Source: a virus
DNA length: 20,794 nt
IMG/VR virus record: IMGVR_UViG_3300030329_004630
Location: 1-20,794 of that record
Direction: 5' to 3' (one strand)
Shown here piece after piece: positions 2,806 through 8,442 of the stretch. Positions within the stretch are counted from its first letter, which is position 1, and each line of letters begins with the position of its first letter. Below the pieces are notes generated by a model, which had not been told where the DNA came from, searched no databases, and saw only the letters and a list, made by a program, of their open reading frames with translations. A program made the position numbers and the translations under genes.

Positions 2806-2933
2806 ATGAGATAATTGCTATTATTTCCCTGAGTACAGATAAAAAAATCCCGGCAAGCACTGTCATACTTACCGGGGGACCAGAATGTCCGAATGGCTAG
2901 AAACAAACAACTCTGGCGAAAGGTGGTTATATT
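2806..2933. other. Convergent intergenic stretch between early rightward and leftward operons
   Basis: About 130 bases lie between the transglycosylase stop and the end of the 37-residue leftward gene. They contain the leftward terminator and little else. I see no good rightward terminator: the same hairpin read on the + strand is not followed by a T-run. Rightward early transcripts may therefore read into the antisense of the leftward operon. Confidence 0.5.
2841..2876 (-). terminator. Intrinsic terminator of the leftward operon
   Basis: Read on the - strand, CCCGGTAAG (2876-2868), a 10-base loop, then CTTGCCGGG (2857-2849) form a 9-bp stem with one mismatch. It is followed directly by ATTTTTTT (2848-2841). 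The GC-rich base and the U-run make a standard rho-independent terminator. It lies about 60 bases past the last leftward gene. On the + strand it has no trailing T-run. Confidence 0.8.
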
Positions 2934-3047
2934 TTAATCGTTTTTTTCTGCGATTTTCCAGCACAAAAATAGGATAACACTAAAGACCAGCAAAAATAAG
3001 CTTGGGATATTTTGCGGGTGTAAGAAAAAGTCAATTAACTTGGACAT
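2934..3047 (-). CDS. 37-residue single-span membrane microprotein
   Basis: The product is 37 residues. ATG at 3047-3045 overlaps the end of the upstream leftward gene by 17 bases; TAA is at 2936-2934. The predicted protein begins MSKLIDFFLHPQN, has a clear hydrophobic span at residues 14-30 (IPSLFLLVFSVILFLCW) and ends with a charged tail (KIAEKND). This is the layout of a one-pass inner-membrane peptide. It fits exactly in the gap between the previous gene and the operon terminator, which supports it. No good ribosome binding site is visible, so it would depend on coupling to the upstream gene. Holin-like, lysis-control or superinfection-exclusion roles are possible; none can be assigned from sequence. 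Confidence 0.5.
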   Translation of the reverse strand: MSKLIDFFLHPQNIPSLFLLVFSVILFLCWKIAEKND

Positions 3048-3246
3048 ATAGCGACGCGGTTAGCATTATTGCAGTGTTAGAAAAAAAGGTTCTATAGTCT
3101 GATTCTTCGTGAAATGTTCTTTTCATCCAATCATCAGCGGCGAGGATGACTAACTCTCGTTCTGGTATTTGCCCGATTTTGTGCTGGAAATGGGTATCTA
3201 TATGGTGTTGGAGCTCTTCAATTTCTTTTTTTAGTTCATCGCTCAT
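3031..3246 (-). CDS. Hypothetical 71-residue protein of leftward operon
   Basis: The product is 71 residues, beginning MSDELKKEIEELQHHIDTHFQHKIG. The first ~30 residues are a charged amphipathic helix, possibly a short coiled coil. They are followed by PERELVILAADDWMKRTF. AAGGGG lies nine bases before the ATG, and the ATG overlaps the upstream gene's stop (ATGA), so translation is probably coupled. It does not carry the repeated leader seen on four other genes of this operon. No family is recognised. Confidence 0.7.
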   Translation of the reverse strand: MSDELKKEIEELQHHIDTHFQHKIGQIPERELVILAADDWMKRTFHEESDYRTFFSNTAIMLTASLYVQVN

Positions 3247-3404
3247 AGTGATTCCCCTTTTTTAACTGTTTCTAAATGCACTTTGACGCAATTTTCTTTT
3301 TCAAGCAATTCAAGCTCAATAGGAGCAGCGATTGTTAAGCCGGATTCGTTTAGGTGGCGTTCTATAATTTCTTGTAATTGGTCGATTTCAATTTGTATAA
3401 ACAT
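3243..3404 (-). CDS. 53-residue hypothetical protein with repeated leader
   Basis: The product is 53 residues, beginning MFIQIEIDQLQEIIERHL and ending VKKGESL. It is acidic, predicted alpha/beta, with no hydrophobic span. ATG is at 3404-3402 and TGA at 3245-3243. Support is strong for such a short gene. It starts right behind a copy of the operon's conserved leader (AAAGAAAGGTCACTGTC), follows the upstream gene's stop by 17 bases, and shares an ATGA junction with the next gene. The sequence MFIQIEI...LNESGLTIAAPIELELLEKENCVKVHL could form a small mixed fold. No family is recognised. Confidence 0.72.
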   Translation of the reverse strand: MFIQIEIDQLQEIIERHLNESGLTIAAPIELELLEKENCVKVHLETVKKGESL

Positions 3405-3424
3405 GACAGTGACCTTTCTTTTTA
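3401..3424 (-). repeat. Conserved leader copy 4 (subtype A)
   Basis: On the coding strand this is AAAGAAAGGTCACTGTC followed at once by ATG. Twenty-one bases (3401-3421) are identical to the copy before the 190-residue gene (4655-4675). It fills the whole gap between the stop of the 102-residue gene and the start of the 53-residue gene. AGAAAGG serves as ribosome binding site, eight bases from ATG. Confidence 0.85.
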
Positions 3425-3730
3425 AAATATTTCCGTCTCATTTTGAAACATAATATCCGCTTCGTTTGAGGCTTCCTTTTCATCATTTGTTGATATTTTG
3501 TAAAGCCCCTCGAATCCGTTTTCACTGTGTACAGTGAACCAGTAACAGTTATGGAGTTTATAAAGAGAACACGATACCTCTGTAAAATTGATTGCGATTG
3601 TGTCCCCGTGCCAATTCCATTGCTCCACTCCCCTGTGCCCGTTGAATTCTTCCACGGGTTCAAGGTCTAAGAGCTCGTCTATCTTATCAAAATCTGGGTG
3701 GTTGCTCTCAATATGCAGTACGCTCGCCAT
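3422..3730 (-). CDS. Hypothetical acidic 102-residue protein
   Basis: The product is 102 residues if started at the ATG at 3730, or 103 from the adjacent ATG at 3733. I prefer 3730 because it gives better spacing from GGGGG and a TGATG overlap with the 23-residue gene upstream, implying coupling. The protein is acidic and probably beta-rich in the middle (WNWHGDTIAINFTEVSCSLY, CYWFTVHSENGFEGLYKI), with an acidic C-terminal tail (NDEKEASNEADIMFQ). It lacks membrane spans. Small acidic proteins in phage accessory operons often bind host proteins or mimic DNA, but nothing specific is visible. It is followed by a leader repeat copy. Confidence 0.7.
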   Translation of the reverse strand: MASVLHIESNHPDFDKIDELLDLEPVEEFNGHRGVEQWNWHGDTIAINFTEVSCSLYKLHNCYWFTVHSENGFEGLYKISTNDEKEASNEADIMFQNETEIF

Positions 3731-3801
3731 CATGAAACCCCCATGATGCTACAGAAAAGAGTTATGGGGAGTAGGCTTGCTAGTAGTATTTCGATTTTCA
3801 T
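3730..3801 (-). CDS. 23-residue hydrophobic microprotein
   Basis: The product is 23 residues: MKIEILLASLLPITLFC, then SIMGVS. ATG is at 3801-3799 and TGA at 3732-3730. It starts behind a full copy of the operon's leader (subtype B), whose ribosome binding site is AGAAAGG. Its stop overlaps the next gene's start (TGATG). Apart from Lys2 and Glu4 it is entirely hydrophobic or neutral and could span or insert into the inner membrane. It has a Cys at 17 but no proper lipobox. It may be a genuine peptide or mainly a leader ORF that couples translation to the 102-residue gene. The leader copy and junction argue that it is translated. Confidence 0.55.
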   Translation of the reverse strand: MKIEILLASLLPITLFCSIMGVS

Positions 3802-3823
3802 TTTGACAGTACCTTTCTTTTTT
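3793..3823 (-). repeat. Conserved leader copy 3 (subtype B)
   Basis: On the coding strand: AAGAAAGGTACTGTCAAA then ATGAAAATC. Twenty-seven bases (3793-3819) are identical to the copy before the 79-residue gene (4061-4087), including the first codons Met-Lys-Ile. The ribosome binding site AGAAAGG is ten bases from ATG. Compared with subtype A it lacks one C after GGT and has AAA inserted before ATG. Confidence 0.85.
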
Positions 3824-3829
3824 GTCCGA

Positions 3830-4069
3830 TTACTTGGTCGATGTAATTCTGCGGAGTGCGGTATCTATATGGCTATCATCGAGGCCGGATGCGTATAGTT
3901 CTCTGTAAAGGTCTCCGGTATGATGAAAGAGAGTCCATCTCATTGCCATCATTGTTTTAGAGCGGTCGCGGAAGTATGTTTTCCATTCGTCGAGTGATAG
4001 CTCACTATCAGTTATGACAACATCGATTGCGGATTTAAGCTTTGAGTATTGCTCTTTCGTGATTTTCAT
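3830..4069 (-). CDS. Hypothetical 79-residue helical protein
   Basis: The product is 79 residues from the ATG at 4069-4067. An upstream in-frame ATG at 4093 would add eight residues encoded by the leader and the ribosome binding site itself, so I reject it. The protein begins MKITKEQYSKLKSAIDVV and continues with SLDEWKTYFRDRSKTMMAMRWTLF, then HIDTALRRI. It looks wholly alpha-helical and soluble. It shares its first codons with the 23-residue gene because the 27-base leader repeat includes them. No family is recognised. It is the second gene of the leftward operon. Confidence 0.72.
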   Translation of the reverse strand: MKITKEQYSKLKSAIDVVITDSELSLDEWKTYFRDRSKTMMAMRWTLFHHTGDLYRELYASGLDDSHIDTALRRITSTK

Positions 4070-4088
4070 TTTGACAGTACCTTTCTTA
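4061..4088 (-). repeat. Conserved leader copy 2 (subtype B)
   Basis: This is the partner of the 3793-3819 copy, identical over 27 bases. The TAA of the 190-residue gene (4088-4086) is fused to the beginning of the leader, so the stop codon supplies part of the AAGAAAGG ribosome binding site. Confidence 0.85.
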
Positions 4089-4658
4089 TCCAATTACAGT
4101 TACTTTGCCGCTATAACCAAGAGCTTCGCAGATTGACGTAAGAGCTTCGCGTACAACGCTCGTTCCTCGGCCATCAGCATCAATCGTCTCAATTCCGGCG
4201 CTTTCGCATGCACGCGCAAAAGATGCGCTTTTCTTGCAGTATCCGCCACCGCCCGCAGTGCCGTGACCGGCAACAGAAATATTTGCTCCGCTTACCCAGA
4301 TTGAGCAATAAACCTTAGAAGCGGATTTGCTGCGTCCCATGTACCAGCGCACGGTAACGGGATTCTTAATTTCTCCGTCATGGATGAGGACGGCGTTAAA
4401 TTCTTCTACTAACTCTTTTTCGTTAGCTAGATTTTTAGCGTTAGAGATAGTTTCGTTTTTGAATGTCGTCGTCATTTGAACAGTGCGCTTGATTTCGATG
4501 TCGCCTGCTTCAAAAACAAGTGCGCTGCCGTCGTCAAACGTCCAAGTTCGGACACCAGCGCTGTAGTCGTCTTCGCATTCAGCACCTTGAACGGTGCAAA
4601 GGGTTGTTAGTTCTGGGTGATTTAGGAGATATAAATCGGCTTGAGTTTGGATGGACAT
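4086..4658 (-). CDS. Conserved-looking phage protein of unknown function, first gene of leftward operon
   Basis: The product is 190 residues. ATG at 4658-4656 follows leader copy 1. The N-terminal half has an acidic beta-rich look (RTWTFDDGSALVFEAGDIEI). The C-terminal half contains VRWYMGRSKSASKVYCSIWVS, a Gly/His segment (SVAGHGTAGGGGYCKKS), and helices ending SVVREALTSICEALGY. I recall a similar arrangement (WYMGRS..S.VY.SIWV, GHG.AGG.GY.K.SAA...A..SAGI) in uncharacterised phage and plasmid proteins. That is from memory, not a search, and their function is unknown to me. His/Cys residues in the Gly-rich region could bind metal. It leads the operon and lies about 20 bases after the control region. 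Confidence 0.75.
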   Translation of the reverse strand: MSIQTQADLYLLNHPELTTLCTVQGAECEDDYSAGVRTWTFDDGSALVFEAGDIEIKRTVQMTTTFKNETISNAKNLANEKELVEEFNAVLIHDGEIKNPVTVRWYMGRSKSASKVYCSIWVSGANISVAGHGTAGGGGYCKKSASFARACESAGIETIDADGRGTSVVREALTSICEALGYSGKVTVIG

Positions 4659-4675
4659 GACAGTGACCTTTCTTT
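4655..4675 (-). repeat. Conserved leader copy 1 (subtype A)
   Basis: This is the first copy of the leader: AAAGAAAGGTCACTGTC then ATG on the coding strand. It is identical over 21 bases to 3401-3421. It provides the ribosome binding site of the operon's first gene. Confidence 0.85.
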
Positions 4676-4698
4676 AATCAGTATTCTTGCTCGACTTG

Positions 4699-4730
4699 TT
4701 TATAGTGACATAAACTCAACCGGATTACAA
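4699..4730 (-). promoter_or_regulatory. Possible leftward promoter
   Basis: On the - strand TATAAA (4704-4699) could be a -10 box about 40 bases before the first leftward ATG. A TTGTAA (4730-4725) lies 20 bases further upstream, which is longer than the usual 16-18. This is only a weak sigma70 match, so the true promoter could be recognised by another factor. Confidence 0.25.
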
Positions 4731-4775
4731 GCGGTATTTATGCAAAAACGACATATTGTGTGGATTTATTTATCC

Positions 4776-4808
4776 GTGAACACAAGTACACGTAAACATT
4801 AGTTAACG
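4776..4808. repeat. Operator-like cluster, left
   Basis: The cluster contains GTGAACAC (4776-4783) followed by AAGTACACGTAA (4784-4795) and GTTAACG (4802-4808). The same elements recur at 4999-5104, in different order. Confidence 0.5.
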
Positions 4809-4998
4809 GCGCCTCGCACGGTTCGCCTATATATTAATGTAATGGATGACTCCAGGCCATGTTCGCACGGTAGCAGCGATTCAAAAAGGCTGAGAAAGGG
4901 GCTGTGTTGGGGTCCCACATATCATGCCAACTTTTTATGCCCTAACCCTTTAAAATGACTATACTTTTCCTGTGCTGGAAAATGCCGTGTGTGAAAAA

Positions 4999-5066
4999 AC
5001 GTTAATGTTAACGTATGTTCACGTGAATGATTACAGACACTTGTGAATGAGTGTTCACACGTAATC
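4999..5066. repeat. Operator-like cluster with two palindromes
   Basis: ACGTTAA-TG-TTAACGT (4999-5014) is a perfect 7-2-7 inverted repeat. It is followed two bases later by TGTTCACGTGAA (5016-5027), whose TTCACGTGAA is a perfect 10-bp palindrome. Next come TTGTGAATGA (5041-5050) and GTGTTCACACGTAATC (5051-5066). The spacing and symmetry look like binding sites for a dimeric DNA-binding protein. Confidence 0.55.
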
Positions 5067-5108
5067 TTGGCACGCTTATTGACTCACGCTAAGTACACGT
5101 AATCACTA

Positions 5109-5120
5109 GGGGGTACCCCC
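5109..5120. repeat. Perfect GC palindrome
   Basis: GGGGGTACCCCC is fully self-complementary and is followed by CCG. It has no loop, so it is more likely a protein-binding or structural DNA site than a terminator. It lies just after the second AAGTACACGTAA copy. Confidence 0.6.
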
Positions 5121-5181
5121 CCGATTGAAGTTGGCATACTTTTCGTCTCCCCCACACAAATTGCACACCCGAAAACCGTTT

Positions 5182-5233
5182 AGCGAGCGAGGAGAGGAAA
5201 AGCGAGGAGGGAGGACAGCGAGGCTGGGAGAAG
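5182..5233 (+). repeat. Purine-rich tract with AGCGAGG repeats
   Basis: AGCGAGG occurs at 5186-5192, 5201-5207 and 5217-5223, in a stretch that is almost entirely purine on the + strand (C appears mainly in GCG). The 15-16 base spacing is regular. It is not part of any credible gene. Confidence 0.5.
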
Positions 5234-5347
5234 CTGTACTCGTAAACTAATGTATGGACACACCTCCAAACCTTTGTCAAGGAGCCCGCTTACACTTACA
5301 CCCGACTTTCTCAGCAAACCCCCATTTTTATCATACATGTCGCACCC

Positions 5348-5410
5348 ATATGTGAACAGAAATTCATGGTTTATTTGCATATGCTCTGAGCCCTATGATA
5401 TATGTGAACA
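5348..5410. promoter_or_regulatory. Phased 11-bp operator pair at the late operon start
   Basis: ATATGTGAACA occurs at 5348-5358 and again at 5400-5410, exactly 52 bases apart (five turns of B-DNA). A -10-like TATGAT (5394-5399) touches the second copy; a convincing -35 is not seen. The second copy lies about 25 bases before the first late gene. The layout suggests a factor binding both copies on the same face of the helix and covering or activating the late promoter. Confidence 0.45.
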
Positions 5411-5434
5411 ACTGGTCACACCAGGGAGGGGTTC

Positions 5435-5797
5435 GTGGCAAAGAAACGGAACACGATATATCTGGACGAGATTACCGAGCAGACACTTCGATTACAGAAG
5501 CGAACGCTTGACCGTCTAGAGCAGTGGTCCGACCAGCTCGATGAGTCCCCCGAACAATTCGATGCGGACTTTGCCAAGGAATTAGCTTCAGTTACCCGTG
5601 CCCTTGCTACAGTTTTGAAGGAGGCGCGTGCGATTAATAAGGATAACGCCGCAGCTACCGCAAAATTAGGGCCGACCGAAAAGCGTAAGCTCTTGGTTGA
5701 TTGGTTTGAAAAACAGCCGTATGAAGTGAAGCGGTCCCTTCTTTGGGAAATGACCCAGCTATGCAATGCGTCACGGGTGGATGGAAAAAGCTCCTGA
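5435..5797 (+). CDS. Possible small terminase subunit / DNA-packaging protein
   Basis: The product is 120 residues. It starts at GTG, with AGGGAGGG five bases upstream. The protein looks entirely helical and amphipathic: a basic start (MAKKRNTIYLDEITEQ), heptad-like residues 10-70 (LRLQKRTLDRLEQWSDQLDE, then ELASVTRALATVLKEARAI), and a C-terminal helix block KRKLLVDWFEKQPYEVKRSL. Small terminase subunits are small, oligomeric, coiled-coil-bearing DNA-binding proteins that select the genome for packaging, and they head late operons. This gene is the first of the late operon but is separated from the large subunit by two genes. The call is by position and fold impression only. Confidence 0.5.
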   Translation: MAKKRNTIYLDEITEQTLRLQKRTLDRLEQWSDQLDESPEQFDADFAKELASVTRALATVLKEARAINKDNAAATAKLGPTEKRKLLVDWFEKQPYEVKRSLLWEMTQLCNASRVDGKSS

Positions 5798-6339
5798 TGC
5801 ACCACGAAGCGGTGATTGGATATCGCGATGCCGCTCCTGATGATATGCGATTTGTGCGGCATAGTTGGGTAGAGTCATACCGAACCTCTCATTATGCAGG
5901 CCCCATCCCAATGCGTGACTATTTCCGCATATACCACGATGTGGTGAAACGTTTAGTGGCGCGAGAAGACTCGCATGTCATGGTCGCCTTCAACCCGCAG
6001 TACGAATCCCAAATTTTTGGGTTCGTTGCATATGAGCGAGGGTTTTCGTTGCCACTAGTTAATTATATCTATGTGAAGGAGGATTTTCGGGAGCTGCCCA
6101 CAAAAGACAGCACCTTTAAAGAAGGACTCGCCACAATGCTACTACGGGAGATAAATATCGACCCGAAGAAGCCATTTTACTACACCTTCAAAACCGGAGC
6201 ATGGGCGTGGCTCACAAAACGGAGCGGTCCATTTTCCGGAGGAGTATTCCAACCCCTTTTGGCTCGCTTTGAGAAGCGTGAAGCCGTAGAACACGAGAAG
6301 CAAGAAACCCCAAAAAAGAGAGATAGAAAATGCGCGTAG
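5797..6339 (+). CDS. GNAT-like acyltransferase-fold protein upstream of terminase
   Basis: The product is 180 residues from the ATG at 5797, which overlaps the previous stop (TGATG). An in-frame ATG at 5743 would add 18 residues inside the previous gene, and I reject it. The order suits a GNAT fold: DDMRFVRHSWVESYR (helix 1), SHVMVAFNPQ and QIFGFVAYE (strands 2-3), LVNYIYVKEDFR (strand 4), FKEGLATMLLREI (helix 3, where the acyl-CoA pyrophosphate loop lies), PFYYTFKT (strand 5). The loop lacks a full R/Q-x-x-G-x-G/A signature, having K-E-G-L-A instead, so CoA binding is uncertain. GNAT-like genes near terminase genes are known in several marine and podovirus-type phages; their role is unclear. 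The C terminus is a charged tail. Confidence 0.55.
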   Translation: MHHEAVIGYRDAAPDDMRFVRHSWVESYRTSHYAGPIPMRDYFRIYHDVVKRLVAREDSHVMVAFNPQYESQIFGFVAYERGFSLPLVNYIYVKEDFRELPTKDSTFKEGLATMLLREINIDPKKPFYYTFKTGAWAWLTKRSGPFSGGVFQPLLARFEKREAVEHEKQETPKKRDRKCA

Positions 6340-6638
6340 AGACTGTTTCATTTGTCACCCGAGTTCGATTGCCCGACGGAAAGCACGAAACCACGATTTC
6401 GATGCAGAATAATCATCAGAAACTGAGTTATGAGGTCCAGGTAGACCCAAAGCAACAACTCGTAAATGTAAGCTCCATCAGACCACCGAGATGGACCTGC
6501 CTCGTGCCAATGTCGAATTGTACGTTTATCACTCTGGCAAAATCCCAGAAAAAAGTGTCATCAAAACCATCAAAACCAGCCGAAGAAGCTCCCCGGGTTC
6601 CCGTGGTTGCTCAGCGCAGACGTGTGAAGGCTAAATAA
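6330..6638 (+). CDS. Hypothetical basic protein between packaging genes
   Basis: The product is 102 residues and overlaps the previous gene by 10 bases, with a GAGAGA ribosome binding site. The first ~70 residues look beta-rich (VSFVTRVRLPDGKHETTI, YEVQVDPKQQLVNVSSI, PMSNCTFITLA). The last 30 are disordered and strongly basic (SKPSKPAEE, then QRRRVKAK), suggesting contact with nucleic acid or an acidic partner. I do not recognise a family. Its place between a GNAT-like gene and terminase implies packaging or late expression, but that is context only. Confidence 0.65.
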   Translation: MRVETVSFVTRVRLPDGKHETTISMQNNHQKLSYEVQVDPKQQLVNVSSIRPPRWTCLVPMSNCTFITLAKSQKKVSSKPSKPAEEAPRVPVVAQRRRVKAK

Positions 6639-6640
6639 CA

Positions 6641-8191
6641 GTGAAAGGCACTTCCTCATACGACGTTTTTCGCGAAATTGCGAATGAGGCGGCGCTGTAC
6701 TCCCCTAGTCGTGACCGCCAAAAAGCGGACGACATGAAAGCTCGACTTTTCGGGCCCCAAGTTGACCTAATTAACGATACATCTAGACGAAAAACGCTTT
6801 TATGCCCAAGACGCGCAGGAAAATCGTACTCCGCAGCCGTCTATTTAATGGCAACGTGCCTTAGTCGAACAAAAGCCAATTGTTTATACGCAACATTGAC
6901 GAAAGGCTCCGCTAGAGGCATTTTATGGCCCCTTTTGAAGATGTTTTCGGAAGAATTTGAGCTAGATTGCCATTTTCACAACACGCAACTTGTTTGTACG
7001 TTTCCAGGTGGAGATAGGCGTATTATTCTAACTGGGGCCGAATCTAGGGCGGAAATCGACAAATTAAGGGGCCAACCCTACGATTTGGTGGTTATTGATG
7101 AGTGCAAATCGTTCCCAAGTGACGTTTTGACCGAATTGGTTCGAGAGGTTATCGGTCCAGCACTTAACGATACGATGGGGAGCCTTGTTTTAATGGGAAC
7201 CCCCGGCTCTGTGCTAGCGGGGATTTTTTATGAGACCACAAAACCCGGCTCGACCCTTACCCGCATGTACAGAGACCGAGAAACCGCAAAAGCAAAAATG
7301 TGGAGTGGCCATTCTTGGACAATTCAAGAAAACGTCGCCCAGCCACACCTTTGGGATGCGTGCCTGGCGGATAAAGACAGCTACGGCTGGAGTGATGAGA
7401 ATCCGATTTGGCAACGTGAGTATCTGGGGCGGTGGGTCTCTGATGATGATGCGTTCGTTTATAAGTACGACCCGAGTCGCAACACCTGGGAGAAAGACCC
7501 CGAATCAAAAAACGAGTTTGGGCTACCCGAAGAGCACGAATGGAAATACTTGATGGGCTGCGACCTTGGGTACGATGACCCCTTCGCGCTTGTTGTCGTC
7601 GCCTATTCCGAAACGTGTGACACCTTATACCAGGTATACGACTACAAACAGGCCAGTTTAACCGTTAGCGATATTGCGAGGGTTATCCGGGACACCCAAG
7701 TAATTTTTGGGGAGTTTGAGGTAATGGTCGGTGACCGAGGCGGTTTAGGTAAGATGGTATTGGCTGAGTTAAGCGAACGCTACGAGCTCCATATCGAAGC
7801 GGCGGAAAAAACAGAAAAACGCGACTACATCGAACTTCTTAACTCCGACATGTTTGAGGGGCGAATAAAAATACTGGAAGACTCTGAATTAGCTCAAGAA
7901 ATGTGCTATCTCGTATGGGATGAGCACGGCCAAAAAGAGGATAGGGCGTGCGCAAACCATGTTTGTGACTCCTTCCTTTATACCTGGCGCTATTCGTTTC
8001 ACAACTTTGCTCGTGCCTACAAGAAAGCCCCGGCAGTGGAGTCAAAGGAGTGGTGGGATGAGAGGATGCGCCAAGAGCGAGAGCTCGCCTATGAGCGAAA
8101 ACGTCGGAGTAAGGGCGTAGACTATTTCCAGAAACTAGAGGCCGAGGTTGCCGATGACCTTAGTTACGAGGATACATGGCTAGAACACTAA
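6641..8191 (+). CDS. terL: Terminase large subunit (ATPase and nuclease)
   Basis: The product is 516 residues. It starts at GTG two bases after the previous stop, and the ribosome binding site is weak (GAAGG, somewhat distant). It drives DNA into the procapsid and cuts concatemers. The ATPase domain shows Walker A PRRAGKS (56-62), Walker B DLVVIDE (148-154) with catalytic Glu154, and the coupling motif LMGTPGS (184-190). The RNase H-like nuclease domain supplies D308 (MGCDLG), D365 (VGDRG) and D443 (HVCDSF), the three expected metal ligands. Length and motif order are normal for a large terminase. The last 16 bases overlap the next gene. Confidence 0.95.
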   Translation: MKGTSSYDVFREIANEAALYSPSRDRQKADDMKARLFGPQVDLINDTSRRKTLLCPRRAGKSYSAAVYLMATCLSRTKANCLYATLTKGSARGILWPLLKMFSEEFELDCHFHNTQLVCTFPGGDRRIILTGAESRAEIDKLRGQPYDLVVIDECKSFPSDVLTELVREVIGPALNDTMGSLVLMGTPGSVLAGIFYETTKPGSTLTRMYRDRETAKAKMWSGHSWTIQENVAQPHLWDACLADKDSYGWSDENPIWQREYLGRWVSDDDAFVYKYDPSRNTWEKDPESKNEFGLPEEHEWKYLMGCDLGYDDPFALVVVAYSETCDTLYQVYDYKQASLTVSDIARVIRDTQVIFGEFEVMVGDRGGLGKMVLAELSERYELHIEAAEKTEKRDYIELLNSDMFEGRIKILEDSELAQEMCYLVWDEHGQKEDRACANHVCDSFLYTWRYSFHNFARAYKKAPAVESKEWWDERMRQERELAYERKRRSKGVDYFQKLEAEVADDLSYEDTWLEH

Positions 8192-8442
8192 AAGAGATGA
8201 AGGAGCTCGTGGAGTTTATGCGAGAGAATGGAGTCCTTCACTGCAAAAATGGCGATTGCGAGCTATCTATCCACCCATCTGCAATTCGGATGGAGGCTGA
8301 AGAGGTTGACGTAGAAGCAGCCGGCGACATCGTTCGATACGGAAGCGACTACGATGACCCAATGTTATACCCGGACGGCAAGGACCCGGTTGCGGAGCAA
8401 CGCGAATGGTTAAAGATGAGAGCGGAGGCAACTAGGCAATGA
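8176..8442 (+). CDS. Small conserved-looking protein between terminase and portal
   Basis: The product is 88 residues and overlaps the terminase end by 16 bases and the portal start by four (ATGA). GAGGA is the ribosome binding site. The N-terminal ~30 residues are a helix followed by CKNGDCELSIHPSAI, with two cysteines that could pair or bind metal. The C terminus has DDPMLYPDGKDPVAEQREWL. Small acidic proteins with a 'DPMLYPDGKDP' kind of segment are often found between terminase and portal in podovirus-like genomes. That is remembered, not searched. Function is unknown; a portal or terminase accessory role is inferred from position. Confidence 0.65.
   Translation: MARTLKEMKELVEFMRENGVLHCKNGDCELSIHPSAIRMEAEEVDVEAAGDIVRYGSDYDDPMLYPDGKDPVAEQREWLKMRAEATRQ

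Follow-up and report, generated by a model that had tools for sequence, protein, structure and literature searches.

We propose that a run of small genes in the DNA of a marine tailed phage is an accessory cassette of a recurring kind: a leftward operon of four translational units, each of which starts with a phage-specific leader that resembles the Start-Associated Sequences (SAS) of other phages. We put the probability of this reading at about 0.72. It is based on four exact copies of the leader that are found only at the heads of the units, with conservation that ends at the edges of the leader; on weak pairing of the leader with the anti-Shine-Dalgarno (anti-SD) sequence; and on the same layout, with other sequences, in other phages. 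The record that we analyzed (the window) is 20,794 bases long and has matches to terminase, portal, and major head proteins.

Seven leftward genes and a terminator had been predicted at 2841-4675, and all of these are present. On the minus strand, seven open reading frames (numbered g1 to g7 from right to left) run from 4658 to 2934, and an intrinsic terminator follows. From right to left, the features are:

4676-5434, no strand: divergent control region, with the leftward cassette on one side and the rightward genes toward the terminase on the other
4659-4674, minus strand: leader type A (AAGAAAGGTCACTGTC), before g1
4086-4658, minus strand: g1, 190 amino acids; residues 64-184 are similar to phrog_7028 (function unknown), E = 1.8e-8
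4073-4087, minus strand: leader type B (AAGAAAGGTACTGTC), before g2
3830-4069, minus strand: g2, 79 amino acids; weak match to phrog_9817, E = 0.0038
3805-3819, minus strand: leader type B, before g3
3730-3801, minus strand: g3, a hydrophobic peptide of 23 amino acids; stop codon partly shared with the start codon of g4 (ATGA)
3422-3733, minus strand: g4, no family match; overlaps the end of g3
3405-3420, minus strand: leader type A, before g5
3243-3404, minus strand: g5, 53 amino acids; no family match
3031-3246, minus strand: g6, 71 amino acids; overlaps the end of g5 (ATGA)
2934-3047, minus strand: g7, 37 amino acids, with one hydrophobic segment; starts within the end of g6
2849-2876, minus strand: intrinsic terminator hairpin of 12 pairs, then a T run

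Two adjacent ATGs could start g4; the first gives a protein of 103 amino acids and the second one of 102. A scan of a 5-kb stretch for terminators gave 5 terminator-like sites where 4.9 were expected by chance; the hairpin at 2849-2876 has the longest stem among the scanned sites and lies at the 3' end of the cassette. Convergent to the cassette, at 2308-2805 on the plus strand, is a gene for a protein of 165 amino acids that has a hydrophobic stretch at its N terminus as well as an SLT transglycosylase domain (PF01464, E = 9.6e-6), and for which a search of viral contigs found no relatives. Upstream of it, at 1918-2280 on the plus strand, is a match to DUF1064-like endonucleases or Holliday junction resolvases (phrog_190, E = 5.7e-14).

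The original prediction also held that four of the genes start behind near-identical leaders, and this was upheld. The leader, AAGAAAGGT[C]ACTGTC, has exactly four copies in the record, without any mismatch and all on the minus strand. They lie directly before g1, g2, g3, and g5, with 0 or 3 bases between the end of the leader and the ATG. The pattern did not arise once in 3000 dinucleotide shuffles of the cassette, and none of the other gene starts that we examined in the window, including those of structural genes, carries it. There are two sub-types, TCACTGTC-ATG (g1 and g5) and TACTGTCAAA-ATGAAAATC (g2 and g3), which are distinguished by one base ahead of ACTGTC and by the AAA before ATG. 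Searches of Rfam, and of phage genomes with the DNA of the whole window, gave no match. The exact leader pattern does occur among 2.9 million viral contigs, with a single copy per locus among the matches listed, and we take these to be chance.

The conservation is sharply bounded. At positions -20 to -1, pairwise identity is 17/20 for g1 and g5 and 19/20 for g2 and g3, while at -50 to -20, upstream of the leaders, it is 4-11/30, and by codon 10 it is at background again. The leaders might be remnants of a recent duplication of a start region, with new genes joined to its copies, in which case their identity would reflect recency and they would have no special function. This would account for the two closer pairs that types A and B form, for the similarity that continues over the first few codons (D1 and D2), and for a locus in another phage (L153) where the first five codons are also common to two genes. 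However, the leaders are perfect while the downstream coding sequence and the upstream flanks are at background, which implies that the leaders outlived their surroundings, and many phages arrived at this design with sequences of their own. We therefore consider simple duplication to be unlikely.

The original prediction overlooked that the genes fall into four translational units, with the leader at the head of each. The three genes without a leader all overlap the preceding gene: the start codon of g4 lies in the stop of g3 and that of g6 in the stop of g5 (both as ATGA), and g7 starts inside the end of g6. Because of these overlaps, the four leaders head the units g1, g2, g3-g4, and g5-g6-g7. 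Judging from the overlaps in the sequence, g4, g6, and g7 are probably translated by coupling to the preceding gene. Leader-headed hydrophobic peptides are also found in cassettes of other phages: one of 27 residues overlaps the next gene in L148 (compare the 23-residue g3), and one of 20 residues is in L150.

Is the leader just a strong ribosome binding site? We rejected this explanation because the predicted pairing between the leaders and the anti-SD sequence is only -3.6 to -4.8 kcal/mol, whereas many of the phage's other genes reach about -8 to -11.6 kcal/mol. With such a weak Shine-Dalgarno core, the leader is not simply a strong ribosome site. A related explanation is that the gene starts of this A-rich operon simply converged on a good ribosome binding site. 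The leader does have an AAAGGT core at the position of a ribosome binding site, and local folding of the RNA around the leaders is weak, as this explanation would expect. But the pairing is weaker than for most other genes of this phage; the spacer, ACTGTC, which has no complement in the anti-SD sequence, is equally conserved (fully, across all four leaders); and no other gene that we examined in the window uses the leader. Convergence is thus very unlikely.

The terminator hairpin raises another alternative, as it contains ATGACAGTGCTT, which shows partial complementarity to each of the four leaders. The operon would then supply, from its 3' terminator, an RNA that could pair with the leaders and lower translation as the transcript accumulates. 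Such an operon would be self-limiting: the hairpin would cover the Shine-Dalgarno core, the spacer, and the start codon and so repress every accessory gene. On the cassette strand, ATGACAGTG occurs once in the whole window, and this copy is in the hairpin. Its predicted duplexes with the leaders are at -20.2, -17.6, -16.1, and -16.1 kcal/mol (ranks 1, 3, 4, and 4 of 24 starts), and the mean duplex score was reached by 0.18% of shuffled hairpins. There is also a precedent, as OppZ and CarZ are reported to be autoregulatory small RNAs derived from 3' untranslated regions (PMC7398697). On the other hand, the hairpin's self-fold is at -19.0 kcal/mol with a loop of 4 nucleotides, so invasion by a leader is not clearly favorable. 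The complementarity was noticed after the fact and is not seen in the other cassettes, whose 3' ends are mostly missing. We doubt that the terminator pairs with the leaders in this way, and a self-limiting operon is equally improbable.

We favor the SAS-like reading instead. The cassette would be an operon of small accessory genes, presumably transcribed leftward as a single RNA, divergent from the packaging genes, and ended by the intrinsic terminator. Each unit would start with a weak Shine-Dalgarno core and a conserved spacer that touches or nearly touches the start codon. The leader would act in translation initiation, either by setting one initiation rate for all units or by exposing all of them to one common regulator. 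It would also be the socket at which the phage acquires new genes.

The claim that none of the seven proteins has a recognized function stands in that phrog_7028 has none assigned, but g1 does belong to a known phage family. Relatives of g1 are found in Aeromonas phage phiWae15, in 11 viral contigs from IMG/VR, and in a contig from a Henriciella metagenome-assembled genome; profile searches add Burkholderia phage BcepSauron and Escherichia phage ECP26. The phrog_7028 profile is matched by 9 of 11 aligned relatives, and residues 1 to about 58 of g1 are extra, outside of the conserved domain. In a structural model of g1 (pLDDT 76), the conserved part forms four long strands and two helices. Neither the sequence nor the fold has a credible match in the PDB, and the matches in BFVD are uncharacterized phage proteins only. 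Our model of g4, which was folded as a single sequence, had low confidence (pLDDT 48) and was set aside. Anti-host, anti-defense, or superinfection-exclusion roles had originally been put forward as an inference. The PADLOC models gave weak matches only, of which the best was PDC-S10 to g6 (E = 6e-4, 17 bits). Guessing from context, the proteins of the cassette are probably accessory factors that act on the host or on other phages.

To the right of the control region, genes run rightward and reach the large terminase at 6641 and then the portal at 8439. The three genes before the terminase (5435-6638, plus strand) are well conserved in related contigs, and the first two of them have no confident family match. 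Within the control region, 5093-5434 is conserved in related contigs, and no sigma-70-like promoter was scored in 4676-5434. The stretch at 4960-5420 has many inverted motifs of the types GTTCAC/GTGAAC and GTTAAC (for example, TTCACGTGAA) and may contain operators or an origin. A block in the control region, TGTCAAGGAGC..GC.TACACTTAC, is conserved in two contigs (L006 and L007). We did not find close relatives with the cassette, as the contigs that are related by the portal or by a 120-amino-acid gene mostly begin at or to the right of the control region. Hence, neither conservation of this phage's own leader nor swapping of genes behind it was seen.

In unrelated phages, the small genes around a g1 relative frequently have near-identical leaders before their starts, and each phage has its own leader sequence. 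Searches of whole records show that these repeats are confined to the cassettes: there are 6 copies of AACACGGAGATCA within 2.3 kb of a 14.7-kb record, 11 copies of CAACCGAAGAGG within about 6.8-8.5 kb of an 89.7-kb record, and 5 copies of GGANTTTTAAAAATG within 4.5 kb of a 55.7-kb record. For a CAAGGRACA-type leader, 4 of 5 matches lie within 1.1 kb of a 30-kb record. Further repeated leaders are GGACTYGGAAGGA (4 copies), AACCTGGAGAA (3 copies), and ACGAAAGGAMCGAAA (3 copies). L013, which is related to the present phage by its portal protein, has AACAAGGAGNNTNNAAAATG four times, all in leftward genes upstream of the terminase region. The large terminase is divergent from the leader-bearing cassette in four phages: L148, L150, L156, and the present one. 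In L150, a helicase-loader gene lies between the terminase and the cassette, on the cassette strand. The L148 contig has only g1 in common with the present phage at the cut-off that we used.

We compared 13 loci that were found by the g1 protein alone to 100 control phage loci, which are not a perfectly random sample because they were fetched via one chance copy of the present leader pattern. By an automatic test that counts leader positions, at least 5 copies of one leader were present at 3 of the 13 g1 loci and at 0 of the 100 controls (p = 0.0012, to be read with the knowledge that this was the second of two versions of the test). The first version gave p = 0.066; it kept only non-overlapping long reading frames and so lost small genes. 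With a threshold of at least 4 copies, the counts were 4/13 and 8/100 (p = 0.03). The cases of L146, L148, L155, L156, and phiWae15 are based on alignments that we read by eye, and several of these by-eye cases do not exceed the controls under the automatic test alone. A clear repeated leader was lacking at 5 of the 13 loci (none in L145, L147, L149, or L152, and at most 2 weak copies in L154). In Citrobacter phage Mordin, the positive control, we counted 16 copies in the cassette, whereas the structural region had a background of 2. The second version of the test is insensitive for Adephagia because its SAS are thinly spread.

The presence of one leader before genes for unrelated proteins had originally been taken as a sign of modular gain or of common post-transcriptional control. 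The recurrence of the design in unrelated phages and its resemblance to published SAS agree with this, but swapping behind the same leader was not seen. Previous observations of SAS-type repeats are few, and each concerned a single phage group; here the repeats recur, with a different sequence each time, around one gene family in unrelated phages. This suggests that phages have, in leaders with their own sequence, a standard socket or switch for the translation of accessory genes. As a regulatory target, the leader could allow a single factor or RNA to control many accessory proteins of the phage at once; as a recombination socket, it would explain how such genes are gained. Repeated leaders offer an easy way to find accessory cassettes in phages without annotation and to compare leaders between groups.

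Among the phages with g1 relatives, phiWae15, BcepSauron, and ECP26 all have the relative within a run of small hypothetical genes, as here. In phiWae15, there are two near-identical leaders, the terminators are paired, and the neighborhood had no match to g2-g7. ECP26 has looser repeated leaders (AAGAGGATAAAATC). BcepSauron has no clear shared leader; TATACT...TCACTTTCAAC recurs before many of the small genes of its array (L171, 1-10000) and looks like a per-gene promoter.

SAS-like repeats with their own, different sequences are known from Mordin (PMC4611695) and from Microbacterium phages of cluster EF (PMC7302621). As in the present phage, the repeats of Mordin lie in one cassette of small genes that ends in a terminator. 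Mordin has more copies, its cassette genes are mostly separated by gaps whereas three of ours overlap the preceding gene, and we found no relative of g1 (phrog_7028) in it.

SAS and the associated ESAS were described by Pope et al. 2011 (PMC3203893) in mycobacteriophages of cluster K, a different phage group from the present phage. The cluster K consensus, GGGATAGGAGCCC, is unrelated to AAGAAAGGT[C]ACTGTC, and there are 11-19 copies over half a genome as compared to four in one 1.8-kb operon. ESAS-type inverted repeats (17 bp, upstream of about half of the cluster K sites) have no shared counterpart upstream of the present leaders. In both systems, a short asymmetric repeat lies near start codons at the position of the ribosome binding site, is conserved beyond the part that pairs with 16S rRNA, and precedes a subset of the non-structural genes, mostly in one orientation, while being absent from structural genes; in the present record, which may be a fragment, all four copies are in the cassette. 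Because these positional features are shared and the cluster K consensus is absent, we describe the leader as SAS-like rather than as a cluster K SAS.
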